Assembly: GCF_900156105.1 (NCBI RefSeq)
Contig: NZ_FTMS01000012.1
Span: forward strand, 62,001 to 126,000
From: Alkalispirochaeta americana
GTDB taxonomy: Bacteria > Spirochaetota > Spirochaetia > DSM-27196 > Alkalispirochaetaceae
DNA: 64,000 bases
Direction of reading: 5' to 3'
How positions within the stretch are numbered: position 1 is the stretch's first letter; every line of letters starts with the position of its first letter. Shown one piece after another: positions 1-38,232 of the stretch. Both the position numbers and the translations under genes were made by a program. The notes beneath the pieces were generated by a model, which saw only the letters and a list, made by a program, of their open reading frames with translations, had not been told where the DNA came from and searched no databases.

Positions 1-1005
1 TATATTGAGGCAATCGCTCCCAGCCCCAAGGCGGTGCTTATCACCGGCGAGAGCGGAACGGGAAAAGAACTACTGGCCCGAGCGATCCACCAGGCGGGGG
101 ATCGGGAGGGGCCTTTTGTGGCGGTGAACGTGGCCGGTCTGGACGATGTTCTTTTCTCGGATACCCTCTTCGGGCATCTCCGGGGGGCCTTTACAGGTGC
201 AGATCGCTCCCGGGGCGGTTTGGTCGAACGGGCCCAGGGGGGGACGCTCTTTCTTGACGAGATCGGTGATCTGGAGCCCCTGAGCCAGGTAAAGCTCCTG
301 CGCCTGATCCAGGAGGGTGAGTACTATCCGCTGGGATCAGACGAGCCCCGCCAGGCCTCAATCAGGATTGTGGCAGCCACCAACGCCGATCTTCTGGAAC
401 GGCAACATCAGGGAACGTTTCGCAAAGACCTCTATTATCGCTTGGTGTCCCATCGCATACGGGTTCCGGCACTGCGGGAACGACGTGAGGACATACCCTT
501 GCTGGTGGATCATTTTGTGGCCGAAGCAGCAGCCGAGCTGGGAGAGCCTGCTCCCGCTGTCTCTGACGATGCCCTGCGGTTGCTCGCCCGGGCTGGCTAT
601 CCCGGGAATATCCGGGAGCTTCAGGCGATCGTGGCCGATGCCGTGAGTCGTGCCCGGGGTGGGGAATTGCCTCTTTCGGTGATCCGGGAATACTTTCGAA
701 CGACTCAGGGGGAATCTGTCCGGGGAGATTTCGGGGAGGATCAGGGAGTTCGCGAGGGGGCCGGGGTCTCCCCCGGGGGCGGTCGATCCCTCGCGGCCGG
801 TGAAGTTTCTCCCGAGGGGTTTCAGGGGGAGCGCCTCTCCTGGAGTGGCTCTTTCCCGATGCTTGCAGAGGCCGAGCGTTTCCTGATTACCGAGGCGCTT
901 CGACGCTGCGACAATAACCAGACTGCTGCTGCCCAGCTTCTGGGTGTCTCTCAGTCCACTTTGAGCCGGTGGTTGCGGAAAAATGCCCCCGGTCAGAATG
1001 CATAG
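1..1005 (+). CDS. sigma-54-dependent transcriptional activator (3' part)
   Basis: The frame is open from base 1, so the N-terminal sensor part lies outside the window. The visible 334 residues begin inside the AAA+ domain: Walker A GESGTGKE at about residues 16-23, the sigma-54 contact loop GAFTGA at 62-67 and Walker B TLFLDEIGDL at 82-91. A glycine/glutamate-rich linker of about 55 residues follows. The C-terminus is a Fis-type helix-turn-helix (NQTAAAQLLGVSQSTLSRWL). This is a complete ATPase plus DNA-binding half of an NtrC-family enhancer-binding protein, which remodels sigma-54 RNA polymerase. The sensor domain, and so the signal, cannot be seen. No -24/-12 promoter (TGGC-N8-TGC) was recognised downstream, so its target may lie elsewhere. 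Confidence 0.93.
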   Translation, partial: YIEAIAPSPKAVLITGESGTGKELLARAIHQAGDREGPFVAVNVAGLDDVLFSDTLFGHLRGAFTGADRSRGGLVERAQGGTLFLDEIGDLEPLSQVKLLRLIQEGEYYPLGSDEPRQASIRIVAATNADLLERQHQGTFRKDLYYRLVSHRIRVPALRERREDIPLLVDHFVAEAAAELGEPAPAVSDDALRLLARAGYPGNIRELQAIVADAVSRARGGELPLSVIREYFRTTQGESVRGDFGEDQGVREGAGVSPGGGRSLAAGEVSPEGFQGERLSWSGSFPMLAEAERFLITEALRRCDNNQTAAAQLLGVSQSTLSRWLRKNAPGQNA

Positions 1006-1043
1006 CTATGCAAAATGCATGATTCTTTCCATGCATTTTGCAT
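999..1043. promoter_or_regulatory. nested ATGCAT-rich palindromes after the activator gene
   Basis: A perfect 14-bp palindrome (TGCATAGCTATGCA, 999-1012) spans the stop codon of the activator gene. It overlaps a perfect 14-bp inverted repeat with arms at 1008-1021 and 1030-1043, separated by 8 bases. The same ATGCAT/TGCAT core occurs five times in 46 bp. There is no T-run after the hairpin, so a classical terminator is not obvious. A protein-binding array or a rho-independent-like hairpin are both possible. Confidence 0.5.
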
Positions 1044-1411
1044 GGACCCCTGGTGTTTTTCGGTCTTCCGCGACGACCCGGGGTGATCAATTTATTTTTC
1101 TGGCCTTTTAATTTATTCCTGGACAATAAGATGGGTTTCTTTGTCTCGTTTTCCCATTTGTTGGCATGTATCTTGCTATGTATTTACTGTGATCCCCCGG
1201 GTAACCCAAGGGTGCGGGGGGGTGTGTAAAAAAGTAAAAAATGCAGATGTAAAAAACAGGTAAAAGACAGGTAAAAAAACAGGTAAAGATGTAACAAGTG
1301 ATGTAATATGTAAAAAGGCGGTTGCCTTTCAGGCAGGTTGCTCGGCGTGGCGTAGTCCCCGCTGGTTTGTATTGTTTCTGACTCCCTGGAGAATCCCTCC
1401 GTTGTATCTGG
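1044..1411. other. gene-poor spacer with periodic GTAAA tracts
   Basis: No convincing gene is seen between the activator and the CheY promoter. From 1226 to 1316 the + strand carries nine GTAA(A) tracts starting at 1226, 1234, 1249, 1260, 1271, 1283, 1291, 1303 and 1310. The central four are spaced 11-12 bp, close to one helical turn, which would favour curved DNA. A run of seven or more G residues lies just before it (about 1216-1222). Short reading frames across this stretch have no SD or family resemblance. Confidence 0.5.
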
Positions 1412-1440
1412 TTGCAAAGGGATGGTTTTTTGGGTATAAG
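1412..1440 (+). promoter_or_regulatory. sigma-70-type promoter for the CheY/ABC operon
   Basis: TTGCAA (1412-1417), a 17-bp spacer and TATAAG (1435-1440) make a good housekeeping promoter. The predicted start near 1447 leaves a leader of about 40 bases before the CheY gene at 1489. Confidence 0.6.
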
Positions 1441-1488
1441 TCACGGTAGGGAGGAGCGTAGCCTGATGAAAAGCAGAGGTGCCCGGGT

Positions 1489-1896
1489 ATGAATGAAAAG
1501 CCGCTTGAGGGGTTGCGCCCTGATGGTACGCCGTACCGTGTCCTGGTCGTCGATGACTCGATCTTTGTAGCGAAGCAGCTCACCCAGATTCTCACGTCGG
1601 CGGGTTTCGAGATCGCCGCCACGGCAGAGAACGGCGAAGAGGCGGTGGAAAAGTACAAGGAACTGTACCCCGCCGTCGATCTGGTCACGATGGACATAAC
1701 CATGCCCAAGCTGGACGGCGTGTCGGCGCTCCAAAAAATTATCGACTTCGACAAAGCCGCCAGGGTCATCATGATCAGCGCTCTGGGTAAAAATGACCTC
1801 GTCAAAAACTCGCTCATGATTGGCGCAAAAAATTATATCGTGAAGCCTCTGGATCGAAAGAAGGTGCTGGAACGGATCGTTCTCGCCCTGGGCTGA
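1489..1896 (+). CDS. CheY-like single-domain response regulator
   Basis: A 135-residue stand-alone receiver domain. The acidic pocket is D22-D23, the phospho-acceptor is D69 (in VTMDITMPKLDG), the switch position is S97 and the conserved lysine is K119 (in IVKPLD). No output domain follows, as in CheY proteins that bind the flagellar switch or act as phosphate relays. SD AGAGGT lies 8 bases before the ATG. It sits 8 bp upstream of an oligopeptide-type ABC operon and downstream of its own promoter, so co-transcription with the transporter is likely. Chemotaxis is the default role, but no CheA, CheW or CheX is adjacent, so a different histidine kinase partner is possible. Confidence 0.85.
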   Translation: MNEKPLEGLRPDGTPYRVLVVDDSIFVAKQLTQILTSAGFEIAATAENGEEAVEKYKELYPAVDLVTMDITMPKLDGVSALQKIIDFDKAARVIMISALGKNDLVKNSLMIGAKNYIVKPLDRKKVLERIVLALG

Positions 1897-1904
1897 CAGA
1901 CGCG

Positions 1905-2831
1905 TTGGGTTCTTTCCGCTGGATTCTTTCGCTTCTCTTCCACGCTCTGGCCGTGGTTTTTCTGGTTGCCACAGCCTCCTTCTTTCTTCTCCAGGTCATA
2001 CCTGGCGATCCCGCGGCGGTGGTGGCGGGCCTTGACGCCGACGAGGCAACCCTCGCGACGGTGCGTCGCTCCATGGGGCTCGACGAGGCGGTCTATCTGC
2101 GCTACCTCCGCTGGATTTCCGGACTTCTCCGAGGCCGCCTGGGCGATTCCCTGATCCAGGGCAGGCCTGTGGAGGAACTGATCGCCCAGCGCTTGCCGGT
2201 AACGCTCTCTCTTGCGGGAGCAGCGTTGGTGTCCAGCGTTTTTATGGGGCTGGCGATGGCCCTGGTTGGTTCTGCCAGCCGGATCGGAGAGCGCCTGGTG
2301 CGTATTCTTGAGTATCTGGCCTTTGCCTTTCCGCAGTTCTGGGTGGCGTTGCTCCTGATTTATCTCTTCGCCTTCCGTCTGGGATGGTTTCCTCTCTTTG
2401 GCGCCGGGGAGCCGGGATCGCTGGTGCTGCCTGCTCTCTCTCTGGGGATCTCCAACGCGGCCGTGGTCTCCCGAACGGCCAGAGCCAGCCTGAAGGATCT
2501 CCTCCGGGGAAACCACGCTGCGGCTGCCCGGGCTCTGGGGATCTCGCCCCGAAGAATTTTCCTGGTCCACCTTTTGCCTCTTGCAATGATTCCCTTGCTG
2601 CCGGTCCTGGTGATTCAGGCCGGGTATCTTCTGGCCGGAGCCATCGTGGTAGAGCAGGTCTTCGGCCTTCCCGGGGTGGGCCGTCTTACCCTGACGGCGA
2701 TTGTCCAGCGTGATCTGCCGGTCATTCAGGGCAGCATTGTTGTCTTTGGTCTTGCCTTTCCCCTGCTGAATGCCCTGGGTGATTTTCTGGTGGGTCTTCT
2801 GTGGCCCCGGTTGCGTCTGGAGGGCCGGTAA
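1905..2831 (+). CDS. ABC transporter permease, DppB/OppB type
   Basis: A 308-residue integral membrane protein of the binding-protein-dependent peptide/nickel importer family. An N-terminal transmembrane helix ends in VIPGDPAAVV, typical of DppB. The cytoplasmic coupling helix carries the EAA-like motif AAARALGISPRRIFLVHLLP. It would pair with the second permease at 5983-6804 to form the channel. The start is a TTG with no clear SD, chosen because it gives the usual N-terminal length and lies only 8 bp after the CheY stop, so translational coupling is plausible. The stop shares one base with the next start (TAATG). Substrate cannot be read from sequence; peptides, nickel or glycosides are all used by this family. 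Confidence 0.9.
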   Translation: MGSFRWILSLLFHALAVVFLVATASFFLLQVIPGDPAAVVAGLDADEATLATVRRSMGLDEAVYLRYLRWISGLLRGRLGDSLIQGRPVEELIAQRLPVTLSLAGAALVSSVFMGLAMALVGSASRIGERLVRILEYLAFAFPQFWVALLLIYLFAFRLGWFPLFGAGEPGSLVLPALSLGISNAAVVSRTARASLKDLLRGNHAAAARALGISPRRIFLVHLLPLAMIPLLPVLVIQAGYLLAGAIVVEQVFGLPGVGRLTLTAIVQRDLPVIQGSIVVFGLAFPLLNALGDFLVGLLWPRLRLEGR

Positions 2832-3769
2832 TGAAAACGGCGGGAATTCAGGTGAGAAATCTCCGGGTGGAGACCCTTCAGGAAAAAAACCCCCGGCTTC
2901 TGGTGGGTCCTCTGGACCTGAGGATACTGCCTGGGGAAATTCTCGCCCTGGTGGGCGAGAGCGGGAGCGGAAAAACCCTGACCCTTCGCGCCCTCGCCGG
3001 TGTTCCTCCCCGCGGCCTGGGTATTACCGCATCTCCCGGCGATCTTCCGCTTTCATCGCGGTGCGGAATGGTCTTTCAGGACCCTTTCAGTTACTTCAAC
3101 CCCCGGTGGCGGATGTTTCGTTCCATTGCCGAGGTTCTTCGGGTGGTGCGCAAGGTTCCCCGGGAGAAGATTGCTCCTTTGGTGGAATCACTCCTGGAAA
3201 GTGTAGGGCTTTCCCGGGAAGAGGGTGAGCTTTTCCCCTTCGAAATGTCGGGGGGAATGGCCCAACGCAGCGCTATCGCAATTGCCCTGGCTGTGGATCC
3301 TCAGGTGCTGTGCGCTGACGAGGCCACCAGTGCCCTGGATCCGGCGACGAGGGACCGCATCCTCCATCTCATTGCCGAAATATGCCGCCAGCGATGCATG
3401 GCTGCCGTGGTCGTTTCTCACGATCTGCCCGGCTTGGTGGGTCACGCCGATCGGGTGGTGGTCATGTACCGGGGGCTCGCCGTGGAAGAGGGGGCTGCCG
3501 AGGTCGTTTTGCGCGAGAGCCGCCATCGCTATACCGATTTTCTTGTGCGGTGTCACCCGGGCATCCACACCCGGGGCGGGAAGCTTCCCGAAATTCCGCC
3601 CGATGCCTTCAAAGCCGAAGATGAGGTGTCTCAGCACCAACGAGGATGTCCCTTTGCCGGACGATGCCCTGGTGCAGCCGAATTGTGCCTGCAGGAGATG
3701 CCTCCCTGGCAGGGCGGATCAACCCACAGGTTTCGCTGTTTTTACCCCGCGAGAGGAACCACGCCATGA
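2831..3769 (+). CDS. ABC transporter ATP-binding protein, DppD/OppD type
   Basis: A 312-residue ATPase. Walker A is GESGSGKT, the signature is MSGGMAQR (last part of the canonical LSGGQ changed to SGGMA), Walker B is VLCADEATSALD and the H-loop is SHD. The C-terminal extension has the cysteine-containing CPFAGRCPGA segment typical of OppD/DppD-type subunits. The ATG overlaps the preceding stop by one base. In-frame starts further upstream lie inside the permease gene and were rejected. It should form a heterodimer with the ATPase at 3766-4464 on the cytoplasmic face. Confidence 0.92.
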   Translation: MKTAGIQVRNLRVETLQEKNPRLLVGPLDLRILPGEILALVGESGSGKTLTLRALAGVPPRGLGITASPGDLPLSSRCGMVFQDPFSYFNPRWRMFRSIAEVLRVVRKVPREKIAPLVESLLESVGLSREEGELFPFEMSGGMAQRSAIAIALAVDPQVLCADEATSALDPATRDRILHLIAEICRQRCMAAVVVSHDLPGLVGHADRVVVMYRGLAVEEGAAEVVLRESRHRYTDFLVRCHPGIHTRGGKLPEIPPDAFKAEDEVSQHQRGCPFAGRCPGAAELCLQEMPPWQGGSTHRFRCFYPARGTTP

Positions 3770-24757: not shown

Positions 24758-24831
24758 GCGAGCGTCGTATAATGGCTTATTACCCCAGCCTTCCAAGCTG
24801 GAGATGTGGGTTCGATTCCCATCGCTCGCTG
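24758..24831 (+). tRNA. tRNA-Gly (anticodon TCC)
   Basis: Acceptor GCGAGCG/CGCTCGC, anticodon stem CCAGC/GCTGG with loop CTTCCAA (anticodon TCC, codon GGA), T-arm GTGGG-TTCGATT-CCCAT, discriminator T. It closely follows the pattern of bacterial tRNA-Gly(TCC). CCA is not encoded. Confidence 0.96.
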
Positions 24832-25009
24832 ATTTCCCTTCAATTCTTCAGTTCCATTTCCGAATCATTCATTACTGGGTATGAGCTCCCTTGGTATAGC
24901 TGGCGAGCGCTGCAGACCACGTTCCATGAAAGGTACTGGTTTTTTCTCTGCCAGGCAAAGACGCCCGAGCTACAGAAGGCAACAGACGGCAAGGATCAGG
25001 AGGATCTGC

Positions 25010-25723
25010 ATGGAGACGGTGAATCTATCCATTTCAAACGCGGTTAGCATTTTTTTGTTCTTCACAGGCTGGTTTTTTCTGTTGCTTTTCACCCTTTTGC
25101 CGTTTCTTGAAGGGGCGTTCGTTGTACATGCCGGGCTTTACTGGTTCATAACGGGATATTTCCTTTTTATACCCATGTTTGCTTTTGCCATTCTTTCTGT
25201 CAGGAGAGAGGGGAGCCGCGACATCGAGAATATCAGGCTTTCCCTTGGAGTGCGAGGGTTTTCAAAAAAAGACCTGAAATATTCGATTGTCGGGTTGATC
25301 TTCGTATTCCTTTGCACGGGCATCATCTTTGGAATATCCGCAGCATTAACGCATAGATTCGGGATACGGCCACTTTCAACCACACCCTGGTTTATGGAAT
25401 TTGAATCGTTTCAAGGTCATGAACGTTTCTTTCTTCTTTTCTGGTTCCCAATGTTCTTTTTTAATATTGCGGGAGAAGAAATCTTGTGGAGAGGGTATAT
25501 TCAGACCCGATTGCGTGGTAACTATTCGTGGCTTCTTTGCTCATTTTTATGGATGGTTTTCCATATACCCTTTGGACTTGATTTGATGATTGTGCTGATC
25601 CCTTTGCTGTTTGTTATACCCTATGTGCATAAGAAGACCGAAAACACGTCCAATGCAATGCTGATCCATGGGCTGTACAACGGTCCCGTCTTTGTCCTGG
25701 TTGCCCTGGGGGTTATACAGTAG
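25010..25723 (+). CDS. CPBP-family intramembrane protease-like protein
   Basis: 237 residues, ATG with AGGAGG six bases upstream. It is mostly hydrophobic with about six to eight transmembrane helices. The CPBP (CAAX protease and bacteriocin-processing, Abi) motifs are present: EEILWRGYIQ (E-E-x3-R), FLWMVFHIPFG (histidine motif) and MLIHGLYN. In the family these glutamates and histidines form the metal site in the membrane. Functions include processing of prenylated proteins or bacteriocin self-immunity; none can be chosen here. The gene and its leader are visibly richer in A and T than both neighbours and lie directly downstream of tRNA-Gly, so recent acquisition is likely. Confidence 0.83.
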   Translation: METVNLSISNAVSIFLFFTGWFFLLLFTLLPFLEGAFVVHAGLYWFITGYFLFIPMFAFAILSVRREGSRDIENIRLSLGVRGFSKKDLKYSIVGLIFVFLCTGIIFGISAALTHRFGIRPLSTTPWFMEFESFQGHERFFLLFWFPMFFFNIAGEEILWRGYIQTRLRGNYSWLLCSFLWMVFHIPFGLDLMIVLIPLLFVIPYVHKKTENTSNAMLIHGLYNGPVFVLVALGVIQ

Positions 25724-25748
25724 GGGAACCTCACTCGGCCTCTCTCCA

Positions 25749-30837: not shown

Positions 30838-33321
30838 GTGAGGCTTCCCTCCTATCCCGTTTCGGAGATACGCCAGGAGCTCACGCAGACGGTTCGGACC
30901 TGTCCCCTGACGGTTCTCCGGGCACCCCCGGGAACGGGCAAGTCCACCCTGGTGCCGCTCTTTCTCGCCGAGGCTGTCCCGGGGGAGATTTGGTTGCTGC
31001 AACCCCGTCGTGCGGCCGTGCGGGCCGTGGCCCAACGGTTGCGAACCCTGGCAGGGGAGACCGCTCCTGTGGGGTGGATCACCAGAGACGGGAGAGATCT
31101 GCCCCGAAACTGCAGGATCCTTGTCATGACCGAGGGGGTCTTTCTCCGGCGTCTTGTGGCAAATCCCGAGCTCCGGGGAGTTTCCTGCCTTCTTCTTGAT
31201 GAGTTCCACGAACGCTCTCTGGCGGTGGACCTGTCCTTTGTTCTGGCCCGGCAGGCCCAGGATGTGTTTGCTCCTCATCTCCGGATCCTGATTCTCTCGG
31301 CTACACTGGATGCTGCCTGGGTTCGCTCCCTGGGAGTGCCTGTGCTGGAGGCCGAGGCAAAAAGTCATCACCTTGAGATCCGATATCTGCCTCCTGGTCC
31401 GGGAGAAAGCGAGATCGACCAGGCTGCCGGGGTTGCTCTGGCCCGGCTTCGGCGGGGCAGGCAGGGGATACTGGTGTTTCTCCCCGGCGAGGGCGAGATC
31501 CGCCGTTGCCTGGAACGGCTGAAACGGAACGCCCCGGAAGCTACAGTTCTTCCTCTCTACGGACGGCAAACACCCGGGGAACAGAATCGTGCCCTGGAGC
31601 CTCCCAAAGAGGGTGAGCAACGAATTGTGGTGGCCACCAACGTTGCCGAGACCAGCTTGACCATTCCCGGGATAACCTGCGTGATCGACGGGGGCTTGCG
31701 TCGCCGCCCGGTGATTGACCGGGGAAGGGGAGTTCGCCGGATGGTAACAGACCGGATCAGCCAGGCCTCAGCGGTCCAGCGGGCGGGGCGGGCCGGCAGG
31801 ACGGGGCCGGGCGAGGCGCTGCGGCTCTGGCCCGAGACGGAACAGCTTCGTCCTTTTGACCCTCCCGAGATCACCACGGCGGATCTGGCGGGGCTTCTTC
31901 TTGTCCTGGCGGCCTGGGGCGATATCTCGCGGGACCACTACAGCTGGCCCGATCCTCCTCCTGCGGAACATCTTCTGGAGGCGCGGGAGCTTCTTGCCGA
32001 TCTGGGAGCTCTCGATCCCCGGGGAACGATCACCCCCCGGGGAGAGGCCCTCTACCAGCTTCCTCTGGAACCCCGTCTGGCTGCCATGGTTCTTGACGCC
32101 CGCGATTCTGCGAGGGCCCCTGTGCTGGCAGCGCTTCTGGAAGAGGGGGAGATCCTCCAACCCCACGCAGCCAGCCGTGCCGGGGCCAATCTGGAAGGGC
32201 GGCTCGAGATTCTGGAACACCACGATCTGGATCAGGGGAGCGAGAGCGACGACCTTCGCCCCGGTGCGGCCCGGCGAATCAAAACCGAGGCCCGGCGTAT
32301 TCAGGGAGTCCTCCGGAAGATTCCCGGAAAACTCTCGGGAGAGGAGCGGGGTCGCGTCGAGGGATGGAGTGGCCTGCTGGTGAGCGCCTTTCCCGATCGG
32401 GTGGGGCGTCGTCTGGAAGGAAACCGCTACCGTCTGATCAGGGGAGGCGAGTTTCGGCTCTTGCCGGGGCGGGACGGCTTTGCCCCTGACTGGATTGTTG
32501 CCGCCGAACTCCAGCAGGGGCCGGCTGGCGCCTCGATACAGCTGGCCATGTCTCTGGAAGAGCCTCTCCTGTCCTCGCTCGTGGCTGACCGTGAAACGGT
32601 GCAGGACGAGTTTTTCCTTCAGGATGGTCTGGTTCGGGTTCGCCGGCAGCGATACCTGGGAGATATCCTCCTTTCAGGGACTCCCCTGGCCCTGAAAGAG
32701 GCGGGTCGGGCCCGGGATGCCCTGGTTGATCTGGTTCGCCGCGAGGGGATTTCCTGCCTGGGGTGGAGCGATTCTGCCCGGCGCCTTCAAAAACGGTTGA
32801 TTTTTCTCTGGTCGCACCGGGTCCGGCTCGGGCAGGATTGGCCCGATCTCTCGGACCAGGGACTGGAAGAGACGCTGGATGAGTGGCTGCCTTCCGTCTT
32901 GTCGGATTCTCCGGGAGCGGATTGCCTGAAAGCGGTGTCCATGGTTCCTGTTTTGCAGGGCCGGGTTCCCTGGGATATCCTTCCGCTTCTGGACCGGCTG
33001 GCGCCGGACTTTTTCCGGCTTCCTGATGGCTTTCGCCAGCGTCTTCGCTACGAGGGAGACCGGTGGATTCTCTCGGCACGGATACAGCAGCTTTTTGGCC
33101 TGGTGGATCTGCCCCGGCCGGCGGGTATTCCTCTGGAGGTAGAGCTTCTCTCTCCCGCCCGGCGGCCCGTACAGCGTACTTCCGATCTGGCCGGGTTCTG
33201 GCGCTCTACCTATCAGGAGGTGCGCCGGGAACTCCGGGGGCGGTACCCCAAACACGCCTGGCCCGAGAATCCTCTGGAGATTCCCTCCGGAGAGGGCTCC
33301 CGATCGCGGCGCAGACAATAA
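30838..33321 (+). CDS. hrpB: ATP-dependent helicase HrpB
   Basis: 827 residues, GTG start 17 bp after the chemoreceptor gene. A DEAH/RHA-type helicase: Walker A APPGTGKST, motif II LLLDEFHERS (DEFH), motif III LSATLD, motif V TNVAETSLTIPG and motif VI QRAGRAGRTGPGEA. The HA2 and the HrpB-specific C-terminal regions follow (WSHRVRLGQDWPDLSDQGLE). It unwinds nucleic acid using ATP; the cellular role of bacterial HrpB is poorly defined. Length matches the family (about 800-840). Transcription probably ends near the hairpin at 33356-33388. Confidence 0.95.
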   Translation: MRLPSYPVSEIRQELTQTVRTCPLTVLRAPPGTGKSTLVPLFLAEAVPGEIWLLQPRRAAVRAVAQRLRTLAGETAPVGWITRDGRDLPRNCRILVMTEGVFLRRLVANPELRGVSCLLLDEFHERSLAVDLSFVLARQAQDVFAPHLRILILSATLDAAWVRSLGVPVLEAEAKSHHLEIRYLPPGPGESEIDQAAGVALARLRRGRQGILVFLPGEGEIRRCLERLKRNAPEATVLPLYGRQTPGEQNRALEPPKEGEQRIVVATNVAETSLTIPGITCVIDGGLRRRPVIDRGRGVRRMVTDRISQASAVQRAGRAGRTGPGEALRLWPETEQLRPFDPPEITTADLAGLLLVLAAWGDISRDHYSWPDPPPAEHLLEARELLADLGALDPRGTITPRGEALYQLPLEPRLAAMVLDARDSARAPVLAALLEEGEILQPHAASRAGANLEGRLEILEHHDLDQGSESDDLRPGAARRIKTEARRIQGVLRKIPGKLSGEERGRVEGWSGLLVSAFPDRVGRRLEGNRYRLIRGGEFRLLPGRDGFAPDWIVAAELQQGPAGASIQLAMSLEEPLLSSLVADRETVQDEFFLQDGLVRVRRQRYLGDILLSGTPLALKEAGRARDALVDLVRREGISCLGWSDSARRLQKRLIFLWSHRVRLGQDWPDLSDQGLEETLDEWLPSVLSDSPGADCLKAVSMVPVLQGRVPWDILPLLDRLAPDFFRLPDGFRQRLRYEGDRWILSARIQQLFGLVDLPRPAGIPLEVELLSPARRPVQRTSDLAGFWRSTYQEVRRELRGRYPKHAWPENPLEIPSGEGSRSRRRQ

Positions 33322-33325
33322 AAGA

Positions 33326-33371
33326 ATCGCGGGCAATCAAGAAAAAACTCGCCTGACACCGGATATTTCCG
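33326..33371. repeat. 46-bp direct repeat, copy 1
   Basis: Identical base for base to 36118-36163. It starts ATCGCGGGCAATCAAG and ends CCGGATATTTCCG. It lies directly after the hrpB stop codon. Together the copies bracket the fibronectin-III lipoprotein gene and its leader. Confidence 0.9.
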
Positions 33372-33388
33372 GAGTGAATATCCGGTGT
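33356..33388 (+). terminator. 12-bp inverted repeat after hrpB, overlapping repeat copy 1
   Basis: ACACCGGATATT (33356-33367) and AATATCCGGTGT (33377-33388) form a perfect stem with a 9-base loop. The following ATCTATTG is not a strong T-run. The left arm belongs to the 46-bp repeat; the right arm is absent from copy 2. Confidence 0.45.
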
Positions 33389-33678
33389 ATCTATTGTTCC
33401 TATCTTCTCTGATGGTTCAGAAAAAATTTCTCGGGAAAAGATTAAAAAAATTATGGCTATCATTGAATTTTTTTATGGCCGGGGTATGTTCTTCTGGAGT
33501 GGCTTAATCAAAGAGCATATATGAACAATAATTGTTTTTTTAAATTTAAAAAATGTCCTCTCTCAAAAAGTTTAGAAGGAGGTTGTTGCTGTCCTGAAAG
33601 ACATTCTCTTGGGAGCCCCTCAGCACCATCTGCCGAGGGGCTCATCGCCCTGGTTACACAAGTAGGAGAAATTATTTT
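33389..33678. other. AT-rich leader of the fibronectin-III lipoprotein gene
   Basis: This 290-bp stretch is much richer in A and T than its surroundings (for example TTTAAATTTAAAAAATG). It ends in a 9-bp GC stem, GAGCCCCTC (33613-33621) with GAGGGGCTC (33635-33643), about 35 bases before the lipoprotein ATG. The hairpin could be an attenuator or a 5'-UTR stability element. It contains the small open frame listed next. Confidence 0.5.
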
Positions 33679-33682
33679 ATGA
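33521..33682 (+). CDS. possible 53-residue leader peptide
   Basis: An open frame from ATG 33521 to a TGA at 33680-33682 that overlaps the lipoprotein ATG as ATGA. The product would be cysteine- and lysine-rich at the N-terminus (MNNNCFFKFKKCPL) with a CCC cluster. No good SD is seen and no family is recognised. The tight stop/start overlap is the only argument for translation, so this may be chance. Confidence 0.22.
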   Translation: MNNNCFFKFKKCPLSKSLEGGCCCPERHSLGSPSAPSAEGLIALVTQVGEIIL

Positions 33683-35946
33683 AATTTCGATTGCCCGTGG
33701 TTGCGGTCATCGCTGTAGCGGTGATTATGACCTTTTCTTGCGCTGATCCCTTTGAATACAACGAAAAGCCGAACGATACGCCCCATGATCAGTTGGCCTA
33801 TACGTTGCCCGCTCCCGAGGGGCTGGCCGCGAGTGCCTACGACGGCTTCGTGTATTTGTCCTGGAACCCTGTAAACAATGCCCAGCGGTACGCTATCTAC
33901 CGGGGTATCCCCGATGCCACGGCGCTTCAGCTGATCGGTATTGTAGATGCCGAGGAACCCATGGTTTATCCCGCCGGGAGAGCCCCCACCGTGGGTGGAG
34001 GCACCACCTACATGGATTACGTCAATCTGGACAACCGGATGCAGAATCTGCAGTACAATTACGCTGTTATGGCCATGCGGAACAGCGGACCCGACGTATC
34101 GGACTTGTTGTATGCGGACAGCAAAGTCTCCCGCACGATCACCGTGGAGGTTCCCTCGATTCCGGAGCTCGATACGCCCCTTCCTGCCCCGGAAAATGTA
34201 CGGGTTACTTCCCAGGGGTTCCGTCGTGTTTCCTGGGACCGGGTCGATCTGGCCAAAGGGTATCTGTTGATGAGCTTCGATCTGGGTGATACCGATGTTC
34301 GGAACGCTCTGGCCGAGACAACTCCCCAGGCGCGGGATCACAAGCTGATAAACGCTGGTGTTGTTATTGAGGCCGATGATACTCCTGGTGCCCCCTTTGA
34401 GGATATCCTCTGGACCAAGAATGCTGTCAGCCTGGATAATGGCCCGGAATACCTGTACCAGGGCTATATCTACGGTGTTGTTGCTTTTCCGTACGATGAC
34501 TACTTCACGGCCAGCGGAGTTTCTCTTTCGGTCAGACCCGAAAGTATCCTCGATGGCCCCGGAGGCCTGACCGCCACAACCACCCACAAGGAAGAGATCA
34601 TTCTGACCTGGGAAAAAGTTGCCGGTGCAGATACCTATGAGGTGTACCGATCTGAATCACCCGATGGTCCCTGGACTCTTCTGGAAAGCGATCCCGGAGA
34701 TTTTATCACCTATGGCTCTGCTGAAGATAAGATCTGGTATTACGACCGCGATGAAAATCTCGAAGCCGGTGTAGGATACACTAAATCCTATTACTACAAG
34801 GTCCGCGGAGTTGATACAGGTGATGCCAGTGTTGTAGCTCTCTTTTCCGATATGGAAAGTGGAAACATCACCAACGAAGCTGGCACTATAACGTTGGCAC
34901 AACCGGTGTTGTCGGCAACCTCGGGAACCTTTACAAACAAAATTGAACTCACCTGGCCTGCAGTGGACGAAGCTGAGCAGTACATCATCTACCGATCCAA
35001 TAATCACGGTGCAAGCTACCCGGCCGACGGAACGTATGTGGAACTGGTGGGTCCGAGCGAGTTTGAGTGGAAGGAAGGGACCGAAAATACACTTTTCTAC
35101 GAGGACGAGGATGTTGAACCAGGATTGGACGAACACCGCTACTACTGGTATATGGTAATCGCGGTGAAAGCGGACGGTAGCGTCTACAGCGAAAAGTCGG
35201 TGGCTGTCAGTGGTCACGTGGCTCCCTTCGATCAAGACGATTCCATTACCAACGTTCTGGTGGCCCCCCATATCGCATACCACTCCCAGGGTGGACAGGC
35301 TGGACAGATCCGGGTCCAGTGGCAGAATGTAGAGGCTGATCCTGTACAAGGTGCGCTTGGTGCCGAAGGGTACAGACTCTACTATTCCACTGAAGAAAAC
35401 GGTGAGTATACCCTGATCTCCACGATCAACGGCACCACCTCTAACGCCAGCGTCGTCGGAGTAGGAACCTTGAGCGAGAGTACCAACCAGGGCTACGACC
35501 TTCGTATCGATATCCCGGTAGGAGACCTCTTCGTTCGGGGTACGGAATACTACTTCCGCATGAAATCGCTGAACCATACTGAGACCATGGTAAGCACCAG
35601 ATCGAACGTTGCAAGAAACTTCCTGGACGGGTTGGACCAGGCGAACATCGCCCAGTCTAGCTGGAATAACGCCCAGAACCAGCTGGCGGTGCGGATCTCC
35701 GAAGCGGTGCACGGTGTGGATGTCCAGTACCGGCTTGAGCTACATAATGCTGAGTCGACCCCGGTTGACTCAGACGCTGCAGTGGAAACGTTCGTTGTCT
35801 TGGAAGTTGATCTTCTGGACGGCCATATTTTCGATCTCAGCGGTGTTGCTGATCAGGAATGGCACTGGACCATCCGTGCTCTGGATGCTGCCGGAACGCA
35901 GCAGCGCTCCTATTCTGATTGGAGTTCTTTCGAAAAGACTCCCTGA
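33679..35946 (+). CDS. lipoprotein with multiple fibronectin type III domains
   Basis: 755 residues, SD AGTAGGAGA. A signal peptide ends in the lipobox MTFSC, so the mature protein starts CADPFEYN. At least four FN3-like beta-sandwich modules follow, each with an L-x-W / Y-x-I-Y-R pattern (YLSWNPVNNAQRYAIYRG; LTWEKVAGADTYEVYRS; LTWPAVDEAEQYIIYRS; VQWQNVEADP). FN3 arrays act as spacers and protein or glycan binders on cell surfaces. Base composition is lower in GC than the genes around it. It sits between the 46-bp repeats with its own terminator, so it may be a movable unit. Surface exposure is inferred. Confidence 0.85.
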   Translation: MKFRLPVVAVIAVAVIMTFSCADPFEYNEKPNDTPHDQLAYTLPAPEGLAASAYDGFVYLSWNPVNNAQRYAIYRGIPDATALQLIGIVDAEEPMVYPAGRAPTVGGGTTYMDYVNLDNRMQNLQYNYAVMAMRNSGPDVSDLLYADSKVSRTITVEVPSIPELDTPLPAPENVRVTSQGFRRVSWDRVDLAKGYLLMSFDLGDTDVRNALAETTPQARDHKLINAGVVIEADDTPGAPFEDILWTKNAVSLDNGPEYLYQGYIYGVVAFPYDDYFTASGVSLSVRPESILDGPGGLTATTTHKEEIILTWEKVAGADTYEVYRSESPDGPWTLLESDPGDFITYGSAEDKIWYYDRDENLEAGVGYTKSYYYKVRGVDTGDASVVALFSDMESGNITNEAGTITLAQPVLSATSGTFTNKIELTWPAVDEAEQYIIYRSNNHGASYPADGTYVELVGPSEFEWKEGTENTLFYEDEDVEPGLDEHRYYWYMVIAVKADGSVYSEKSVAVSGHVAPFDQDDSITNVLVAPHIAYHSQGGQAGQIRVQWQNVEADPVQGALGAEGYRLYYSTEENGEYTLISTINGTTSNASVVGVGTLSESTNQGYDLRIDIPVGDLFVRGTEYYFRMKSLNHTETMVSTRSNVARNFLDGLDQANIAQSSWNNAQNQLAVRISEAVHGVDVQYRLELHNAESTPVDSDAAVETFVVLEVDLLDGHIFDLSGVADQEWHWTIRALDAAGTQQRSYSDWSSFEKTP

Positions 35947-35962
35947 TGATTGATTGAGGGAT

Positions 35963-35985
35963 AGACGCCGTTTGAAGCGGCGTCT
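35963..35985 (+). terminator. hairpin 1 after the FN3 lipoprotein gene
   Basis: AGACGCCG (35963-35970), loop TTTGAAG, CGGCGTCT (35978-35985): a perfect 8-bp stem with no T-run. A stronger terminator follows 15 bp later. Confidence 0.5.
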
Positions 35986-35999
35986 GTCGGGATACAGCA

Positions 36000-36032
36000 G
36001 GGCCTGCGGAAACTCTTTCGCAGGCCCTTTTT
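36000..36032 (+). terminator. strong intrinsic terminator after the FN3 lipoprotein gene
   Basis: GGGCCTGCG (36000-36008), 10-base loop, CGCAGGCCC (36019-36027) and TTTTT (36028-36032). It is a textbook rho-independent terminator. Confidence 0.9.
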
Positions 36033-36117
36033 CTGCGTTGAACTTTAGTGTGTGCCCGAGGGCAGGCAGAAAATCTGAATGATTTCTCTTCAGAAAACTC
36101 CCTCCAGGTATAAAGAG

Positions 36118-36163
36118 ATCGCGGGCAATCAAGAAAAAACTCGCCTGACACCGGATATTTCCG
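36118..36163. repeat. 46-bp direct repeat, copy 2
   Basis: Exact copy of 33326-33371, in the same orientation, 2792 bp downstream. Here the sequence after the repeat diverges at once and the hairpin's right arm is missing. It lies 53 bp before the next lipoprotein gene. Confidence 0.9.
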
Positions 36164-36216
36164 TTCCGGGGTGCTAGCTTTGTAGCGTGGGCAGGAACTC
36201 CTGCCGGTAATACCAC

Positions 36217-38232
36217 ATGACAAGGTTTTTTTCGGAACGCGCGCGGGGACTCAGGGTCTCTATGACAGCAGGGTTAATAGCTCTCCTCTTTTCCTGTTCC
36301 CCCGCCGGGATATGGCAGCAGGACGTGCGGGGTTTTGTCGACGATGGCCTCTCGCTGGTGACGATGGAGTCGCACCGCCTCTCCCGGCAGGGCGAGACGG
36401 CGCCGCTGCCGCGGGCGATCCCGGACCAGCCCCACACCCTGAGAATCACCCTGCGGAACCCCCGCGATTTCGACCTGGTCGTCACACTGGAGGTGGGGGA
36501 TCAGGGGCTCTTTTCTGCCGAGCCCCAGCTTGTGGCGGTGGATAACCGCCTTCTGGAGGTCCATTTTCACCCCCGGGAGGATGCCCGCGATCACCAGCTG
36601 GCCTTTCGGATTGATCTTCGAGCTCCCGAGATCGGGCGAACCTTTCCCTCCCTGGAGATATCCCTGGATTGCCGCTATCCCGATTCCGATATCACCGTGG
36701 ATATTGATTTGGCAACGCCGGGATCCCACGGCCTGGTGCTGACCCCGAACCCCCTCGAAGCGGTTCAGGGACAATCCGTGACGGTGGGCCTCGCCGGGGG
36801 ATCTCCTCTGGCCGGCGGAAGCGATTGGCGATGGTATCTGCAGGGGGATGTCATAGCGGGCCAGACCGGGGCTTCCCTGAATCTGGAGACGGCAGATCTT
36901 CTGGGCGACTACAACCTGGGGGTCTCCGTGGTCTATGAAGGGGTTAGCTACTCGGGAGACGCGGTGATCCGGGTGAGGCAGAGCGATCTTTCGACCTGCA
37001 CCGTCTGGTACGACGCATCCGGGGGAACAGGGGCTCCCGCCGAGAGCGATCACGCATCGGGGGATACCGTCACCGTGGGCGCTGCTCCTTCGCGGTCGGG
37101 CTACGATTTTCTCGGCTGGCAGAGCGATGACATTCCTCCCGCACCCGGCGGCCTCCATCAGCCTGGGGATACCTTCACCATGCCCCCCCGGAGCGTCTGG
37201 TTTACCGCCCTCTGGGAGGCCCAGGAACCGGCCGATATCACCGTGGATATTGATTTGGCAACGCCGGGATCCCACGGCCTGGTGCTGACCCCGAACCCCC
37301 TCGAAGCGGTTCAGGGACAATCCGTGACGGTGGGCCTCGCCGGGGGATCTCCTCTGGCCGGCGGAAGCGATTGGCGATGGTATCTGCAGGGGGATGTCAT
37401 AGCGGGCCAGACCGGGGCTTCCCTGAATCTGGAGACGGCAGATCTTCTGGGCGACTACAACCTGGGGGTCTCCGTGGTCTATGAAGGGGTGAGCTACTCG
37501 GGAGACGCGGTGATCCGGGTGAGGCAGAGCGATCTTTCGACCTGCACCGTCTGGTACGACTCTGTCGGGGGAACAGGGGCTCCCGCCGAGAGCGATCACG
37601 CATCGGGGGATACCGTCACCGTGGGCGCTGCTCCTTCGCGGTCGGGCTACGATTTTCTTGGCTGGCAGAGCGATGACATTCCTCCCGCACCCGGTGGCCT
37701 CCATCAGCCTGGGGATACCTTCACCATGCCCGGGAACCATGTTTTGTTCCGGGCCTCCTGGGAGCCCGATCTGTTGCCCGTGGAGAATCTTCAGGGTTCT
37801 GCAAATCATGTGAGCCAGACCTTGTCCCTGACCTGGACAGATCCCGATTCCCCGGCCCTGGAGGGGATACAGGTCACGTGGGGCCCGACGGGCGGGTCGG
37901 AAAACGGCTCCTTCTCTGTTGCTCCCGGCGCCGGGAGTGCCCTGATCGCGGGTGTCACCGAACCCGGGGTTTATCATATTTCGGTCCGGGCCATATACGA
38001 GGGCGGCGGGGAAGCACCAGAACAGACGGTGCAGATACAGCGCGTCGATTACGATAACTACAGCGTCGGTGTTATTGGCCCGGCGGGGGGAGTTATCTTC
38101 TACGAGCACGATAATCCCGCGAGTGCGGGCTGGCGCTTCCTTGAGGCGGCCCCAAGGGGCTGGTACGGTCCGGTGGAAGATCCGAGGTATGAATGGATCG
38201 GGGGGGGGAATATCAATCCATTAATGGCTTGA
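36217..38232 (+). CDS. lipoprotein with tandem Ig-like/InlB-type repeats, truncated at a G9 run
   Basis: As sequenced, 671 residues ending GGGNINPLMA. The signal peptide ends in the lipobox ALLFSC. After an N-terminal beta domain come two nearly identical 182-residue units, each an Ig-like segment (ITVDIDLATPGSHGLVLTP) plus a Listeria-Bacteroides/InlB-B repeat (WYDASGGTGAPAESD, then GYDFLGWQ). An FN3-like module (LSLTWTDPDSPALEGIQV) and the start of an Lcl/DUF1566 domain (GPAGGVIFYEHDNPASAGW) follow. Frame is lost at nine G residues (38200-38208); ten or seven G would give about 787 residues. The leader contains a GGCAGG-AACT-CCTGCC hairpin (36190-36205) and no clear SD. Confidence 0.82.
   Translation: MTRFFSERARGLRVSMTAGLIALLFSCSPAGIWQQDVRGFVDDGLSLVTMESHRLSRQGETAPLPRAIPDQPHTLRITLRNPRDFDLVVTLEVGDQGLFSAEPQLVAVDNRLLEVHFHPREDARDHQLAFRIDLRAPEIGRTFPSLEISLDCRYPDSDITVDIDLATPGSHGLVLTPNPLEAVQGQSVTVGLAGGSPLAGGSDWRWYLQGDVIAGQTGASLNLETADLLGDYNLGVSVVYEGVSYSGDAVIRVRQSDLSTCTVWYDASGGTGAPAESDHASGDTVTVGAAPSRSGYDFLGWQSDDIPPAPGGLHQPGDTFTMPPRSVWFTALWEAQEPADITVDIDLATPGSHGLVLTPNPLEAVQGQSVTVGLAGGSPLAGGSDWRWYLQGDVIAGQTGASLNLETADLLGDYNLGVSVVYEGVSYSGDAVIRVRQSDLSTCTVWYDSVGGTGAPAESDHASGDTVTVGAAPSRSGYDFLGWQSDDIPPAPGGLHQPGDTFTMPGNHVLFRASWEPDLLPVENLQGSANHVSQTLSLTWTDPDSPALEGIQVTWGPTGGSENGSFSVAPGAGSALIAGVTEPGVYHISVRAIYEGGGEAPEQTVQIQRVDYDNYSVGVIGPAGGVIFYEHDNPASAGWRFLEAAPRGWYGPVEDPRYEWIGGGNINPLMA
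36688..37731. repeat. 546-bp in-frame tandem duplication
   Basis: Unit 1 begins at 36688 and unit 2 at 37234, both with GATATCACCGTGGATATTGA. By eye only about seven mismatches occur over the first roughly 500 bp, after which the units diverge. The period of 546 bp equals 182 codons, so the frame is kept. The high identity implies recent duplication or active gene conversion. Confidence 0.93.

Follow-up and report, generated by a model that had tools for sequence, protein, structure and literature searches.

How did a single lipoprotein-like gene come to stand between two identical direct repeats in the genome of Alkalispirochaeta americana? We addressed this question in a 64,000-nucleotide stretch of contig NZ_FTMS01000012.1 (positions 62,001 to 126,000 of the forward strand), referred to here as the window, where one gene lies between hrpB and a second neighbor, here called gene 2. 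A first-pass annotation of the window had described two 46-bp repeats, identical and in the same orientation, that enclose this gene, and inspection of the sequence bears the description out: positions 33326-33371 and 36118-36163 match at every base, with a start-to-start distance of 2792 bp. Exact repeats in 20 shuffled versions of the window were 14-16 bp long at most, placing the pair far above chance. Similarity between the copies reaches past the exact 46 bp, although imperfectly, covering 54 bp at 94% and ~60-64 bp once an additional TTCCG of copy 2 is allowed. For copy 1 this similarity starts at ~33318 and overlaps the hrpB stop codon. As developed below, we conclude with high confidence that the gene was gained after the split from a sister species, Alkalispirochaeta alkalica, with duplication of the target spacer. 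Table 1 gives the coordinates of all features.

A scan of GTDB genomes with hrpB returned A. alkalica as the only close relative, and the window was compared with contig NZ_KB891710.1 (25105 bp) of A. alkalica DSM 8900. On the minus strand of this contig, the gene immediately after hrpB (842-3328) is the gene 2 ortholog (5-733, 80%). The spacer between the hrpB stop codon and the gene 2 start codon measures 102 bp and holds one diverged repeat copy and no lipoprotein gene. That is to say, the single-copy, gene-free junction that the first-pass annotation proposed to look for is present in A. alkalica, which supports its suggestion of a target-site-like scar. When the left flank and copy 1 of the window are joined to the right flank of copy 2, the resulting 103-bp spacer can be aligned over its full length to that of A. 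alkalica, in which copy 1 aligns to the left side and copy 2 to the right side. The 46-mer is the old spacer behind hrpB and not part of a mobile unit. Continuous synteny between the two genomes extends over ~69 kb around the site, and the 2746-bp segment between the repeats is the largest insertion therein. In ~200 kb of collinear DNA, the two species differ by six clean insertions that measure 300 bp or more, a count from which entries whose matches overlapped, as well as the repeat inside gene 2, were set aside by eye. Flanking repeats do not exceed 9 bp in five of the six, and the insertion flanked by a long repeat is a one-off in this sample. The account we favor, and which we consider likely, is that a 2.75-kb transcription unit was inserted in the spacer after the species split and that the spacer was duplicated.

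The age of the duplication can be judged from the copies themselves. The window copies are identical at 46 of 46 positions, which contrasts the 62% identity between species for the repeat part of the spacer and the 57% identity at fourfold-degenerate sites of hrpB. At between-species divergence, the probability of 46/46 identity is ~5e-12; barring gene conversion, the duplication therefore arose long after the two species separated. The lipoprotein-like gene is absent from A. alkalica and from five other genomes of the genus, and the composition of the DNA inside the repeats is unlike that of the flanks, the GC (guanine plus cytosine) fraction being 0.375 in the leader, 0.538 in the gene and 0.503 in the tail versus 0.644 in hrpB and 0.63 in gene 2. 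Copy identity, absence of the gene in the genus and base composition together indicate a gain in the window lineage. The same three observations argue against the improbable alternative that gene and repeats predate the split and that recombination between the repeats removed the gene in A. alkalica, since gene conversion would then be needed to keep the copies identical. Such a loss would account for the single copy at the A. alkalica junction, which is the expected remnant of a deletion, and would sit well with distant homologues of parts of the protein across the phylum.

We examined how the repeat is distributed beyond this locus. In the 3.31-Mb, 65-contig genome of A. americana there are only two copies (79-bp query; 27-bp core with up to 3 mismatches), and no other gene of this genome is flanked by the 46-bp repeat. 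Among 45 other genomes of the order no convincing match was found, the only ones being chance-level matches of 16-33 bp (E 0.0016-0.08); one short match in the repeat search, in this same length range, is the inverted arm itself, which is described below. These results refute the earlier suggestion of a duplicated intergenic repeat family, and the 46-mer is not a widely scattered intergenic repeat. The further suggestion of a cassette-like unit finds no support beyond the anatomy, given that the repeat flanks no other gene, the insert encodes no recombinase and it has no second copy in seven genomes of the genus. A tandem duplication of a spacer-plus-gene unit was rejected on the grounds that the proteins following the two copies are unrelated. 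We regard it as extremely improbable that the repeat is a functional regulatory element, or a repeat family, placed before related surface-protein genes. Both copies do precede putative surface-protein genes, but this unrelatedness and the restriction to two copies speak against such a role, as do the differing distances to the start codon (307 bp for copy 1 versus 53 bp for copy 2) and the finding that, against A. alkalica, the repeat part is the less conserved part of the spacer, at 62% versus 92% for the adjacent stretch.

A survey of long direct repeats covering 1.265 Mb (38%) of the A. americana genome (G000), in which repeats were judged by pattern and position and not annotated singly, revealed no other isolated intergenic pair resembling the 33326/36118 pair. 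The remaining long direct repeats in the surveyed DNA are mainly protein-internal or tandem arrays, an array resembling clustered regularly interspaced short palindromic repeats (CRISPR) and longer duplications near contig starts. The CRISPR-like array lies at G000:C1:233888-235207 and consists of the 32-bp repeat GTTTCAATCCACGCCCCCGCGCGGGGGGCGAC at a spacing of ~66 bp. At G000:C9:87-3200, near a contig start, a segment of ~0.7 kb is duplicated with a spacing of 2385 bp. A long region of repeated DNA at G000:C3:78000-97500 contains many direct repeats of 30-113 bp and possibly represents surface-protein genes.

Inspection of the inserted segment for traces of a mobile element was negative. No recombinase or transposase family was found on either strand of the insert, its ends share no terminal inverted repeats longer than 6 bp (the longest exact end-to-end match is 6 bp within 60 bp), and no tRNA lies at the insertion site. 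The insert (33372-36117) has no second significant match in its own genome and none in six relatives of the genus, and the 46-mer itself contains no internal inverted repeat longer than 4 bp. The segment thus differs from a transposon or insertion sequence, which it does not resemble in terminal inverted repeats, transposase gene or related copies elsewhere in the genome. With regard to an integron gene cassette, which has an attC structure and core sites at its borders, the observation at hand is this lack of an internal inverted repeat above 4 bp in the border repeat. Integrative elements bounded by attL and attR offer a closer likeness, in that direct repeats stand at both ends and the empty site has one copy. 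Site-specific integration, with the 46 bp as attL/attR and a tyrosine or serine recombinase of the host acting in trans on a small element, would explain why long, exact direct repeats bound a lineage-specific segment. We nevertheless consider it improbable, given an insert that encodes no integrase or other recombinase, a 46-mer devoid of internal symmetry above 4 bp, a target other than a tRNA and a genome with no second site or element.

The left junction carries a further structure that bears on mechanism. The first-pass annotation had described a 12-bp hairpin completed at the right end of copy 1 with one arm missing at copy 2, and this was confirmed in the sequence: the right arm (33377-33388) reproduces the spacer stretch 33356-33367 exactly, as its reverse complement, and it is missing from both copy 2 and the A. 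alkalica spacer. Copy 2 can fold only into a weaker, imperfect hairpin. Perfect stems of at least 12 bp with a short loop occur at two places in the window, compared with an average of 0 in shuffles; the other such stem is a 14-bp inverted repeat with an 8-nt loop at 1008-1043. Since neither copy 2 nor A. alkalica has it, the inverted arm was most likely made at or after insertion. This 12-bp inverted copy of the spacer hints at template switching, as a mechanism still unproven.

Two proposals of decreasing probability follow for the duplication. The broader takes the imperfect hairpin of the spacer as the place where either replicative template switching or the repair of a break gave rise to it, which we put forward tentatively, at somewhat less than an even chance. 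The narrower, possible yet on balance doubtful, is that one replicative event did it all, in which the strand switched template at the imperfect hairpin, folded back over a short distance, took up a whole foreign transcription unit and returned to the spacer upstream. In a template switch of this kind, the nascent strand would leave the spacer at the imperfect hairpin and briefly copy itself back, which would yield the 12-bp inverted arm. Foreign DNA would then be copied, and re-entry into the spacer ~46-60 bp upstream of the exit would produce the direct duplication. The left end of the insert, within the leader, carries AATATCCGGTGT, which is tied to the proposed fold-back. Repair of a staggered break is another possible source of the duplication.

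A Campbell-type insertion is the main competitor to these proposals, although we hold it to be unlikely. Here, the gene would arrive on a circular DNA, together with 46-60 bp that match the spacer exactly, and a single crossover in this shared stretch would leave direct repeats at the two borders. A related strain, or excision at an earlier time, would be the origin of such a circle. Outside the exact 46 bp, similarity is partial and blurred at either end, which is consistent with recombining copies that differed slightly, and the anatomy is that of transposed genes in Arabidopsis, whose flanking repeats are homologous to the empty target site (PMC2869330). However, this route presupposes an earlier source where gene and spacer were already side by side, of which none was found, and it leaves the inverted arm at the left junction unexplained.

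Several points weigh against a recent gain by insertion with spacer duplication. Its direction rests on one empty site and on the lack of the gene in the other genomes of the genus; only one relative is informative, and the polarity is therefore strong but not proven. Gene conversion between the copies could give an old duplication a young look, the partial similarity on both sides blurs the limits of the duplication, and the inverted arm could have been selected as a terminator after insertion. Moreover, a donor of the inserted DNA was not found among viral contigs, phages, plasmids, genomes of the genus or genomes of the phylum. The phylum genomes provided partial, distant homologues only, the best of which (37% over residues 527-748) is in genome G008, where it sits ~16 kb from hrpB and is not bracketed by repeats.

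Assemblers can misjoin at exact overlaps of 46 bp, and the genome is a draft in 65 contigs. An artefact in which the insert was joined into the spacer from a separate molecule sharing the 46-mer is nonetheless very improbable. Both junctions are internal to a 141-kb contig that is syntenic with A. alkalica on both sides, and a misjoin would still require the 46-mer on the other molecule. On the side of A. alkalica, the contig break falls in the internal repeat of gene 2, and the junction of hrpB with gene 2 lies inside the contig.

Table 1 Features at the hrpB-gene 2 locus (window coordinates).
Feature	Coordinates	Strand	Description
hrpB-type ATP-dependent helicase gene (left neighbor)	30838-33321	+	TIGR01970, 633.9 bits, above cut-off; A. 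alkalica ortholog 77%
Repeat copy 1	33326-33371	+	hrpB-proximal copy of ancestral spacer; aligned to the single A. alkalica spacer
Perfect 12-bp inverted repeat spanning the left junction	33356-33388	+	Arms 33356-33367 and 33377-33388; 9-nt loop
Inserted segment	33372-36117	+	2746 bp; insertion relative to A. alkalica
AT-rich leader of inserted gene	33372-33678	+	GC 0.375; holds GAGCCCCTC/GAGGGGCTC hairpin
Lipoprotein-like gene	33679-35946	+	755 amino acids, predicted secreted; hydrophobic N-terminus with Cys21; one GH85_C match
Intrinsic-terminator-like hairpin of inserted gene	35999-36028	+	13 pairs, T-rich tail
Repeat copy 2	36118-36163	+	Gene 2-proximal copy of ancestral spacer
Conserved region upstream of gene 2	36164-36216	+	Adjoins copy 2 without a break; identical to A. 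alkalica in 49/53 aligned columns
Gene 2 (right neighbor)	36217-38232	+	671-amino-acid Flg_new / InlB B-repeat protein; A. alkalica ortholog is the next gene after hrpB

The cargo itself is a single transcription unit in appearance. At the level of sequence, both the GC values and the 13-pair hairpin with its T tail confirm the earlier description of one AT-richer gene with its own leader and terminator, and a promoter scan returned a number of sites not above that of shuffles. The name fibronectin-III lipoprotein given to the gene product stands in part. The N-terminus of the 755-amino-acid protein, MKFRLPVVAVIAVAVIMTFSC, looks like a lipoprotein signal when read by eye, but the Pfam fn3 model scores 12.3 bits, below its cut-off of 25 bits. 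GH85_C, at residues 302-340, is the sole family above cut-off in the protein. A structure predicted from the single sequence was unusable (mean predicted local distance difference test score 32.8).

On either side of the insert, hrpB still has its downstream hairpin region, in copy 1, and the upstream region of gene 2 is likewise retained, in copy 2; both neighbors are therefore intact. Homologous recombination between the copies would excise the gene, as the first-pass annotation had pointed out, and this is reasonable in principle. Gene 2 contains an internal direct duplication of 546 bp at 36686-37731, with a 259-bp exact core, in its Flg_new / InlB B-repeat region. Both A. alkalica contigs that cover the ortholog end within this internal repeat, and because of this the ortholog is probably duplicated too. 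Elsewhere in the window, a second insertion relative to A. alkalica (24855-25730) lies just after a tRNA-Gly (24758-24830) and holds a CAAX-protease-like gene (PF02517, 50.8 bits); it has no flanking direct repeat above 7 bp.

Comparison with known systems places the locus more firmly. Insertion with long target duplication is known from Helicobacter pylori, where restriction-modification genes are frequently associated with it (Nobusato et al. 2000, as related in PMC1643837, PMC3031569 and PMC4978471). As in those accounts, the site is empty in a related genome and holds one copy there, compared with two around the insert, and the repeats, here 46 bp exact and ~54-64 bp overall, are far longer than the target duplications of transposons. 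In contrast to the H. pylori cases as related there, where strains of one species are compared, two spirochaete species are compared here and the cargo is lipoprotein-like. The association with restriction-modification genes, which those accounts do not make a requirement, does not extend to this cargo, with GH85_C as its only match above cut-off. The locus fits the H. pylori pattern with different cargo, in a spirochaete, and is a clear rather than an unprecedented case. Transposed genes of Arabidopsis also have flanking direct repeats, many longer than 30 bp and made of host and not transposon sequence, and insertion of a circle was proposed for them (Woodhouse et al. 2010, PMC2869330). That system differs in being eukaryotic, in having predominantly genic repeats and in that some donors were found, in contrast to the missing donor here. 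Template switching at imperfect inverted repeats is documented in Escherichia coli (PMC7202029), where copying of the nascent strand turns an imperfect inverted repeat into a perfect one, as may have occurred at the left junction. The quasipalindrome events in E. coli are small local corrections, whereas the arm described here borders a 2.7-kb insertion and a duplication.

The locus offers a clean, polarized example of one complete gene gained in a tight intergenic spacer with no recognizable mobile element and with undamaged neighbors. Genes gained in this way usually surface in pan-genome lists merely as unexplained accessory genes. If true, the template-switch reading would represent a recombinase-free route to single-gene acquisition in bacteria, one that leaves a recognizable fold-back junction. 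The combination of an inverted arm and a direct duplication provides a testable signature, which can be searched for across species pairs to learn how frequently genes are gained by template switching.
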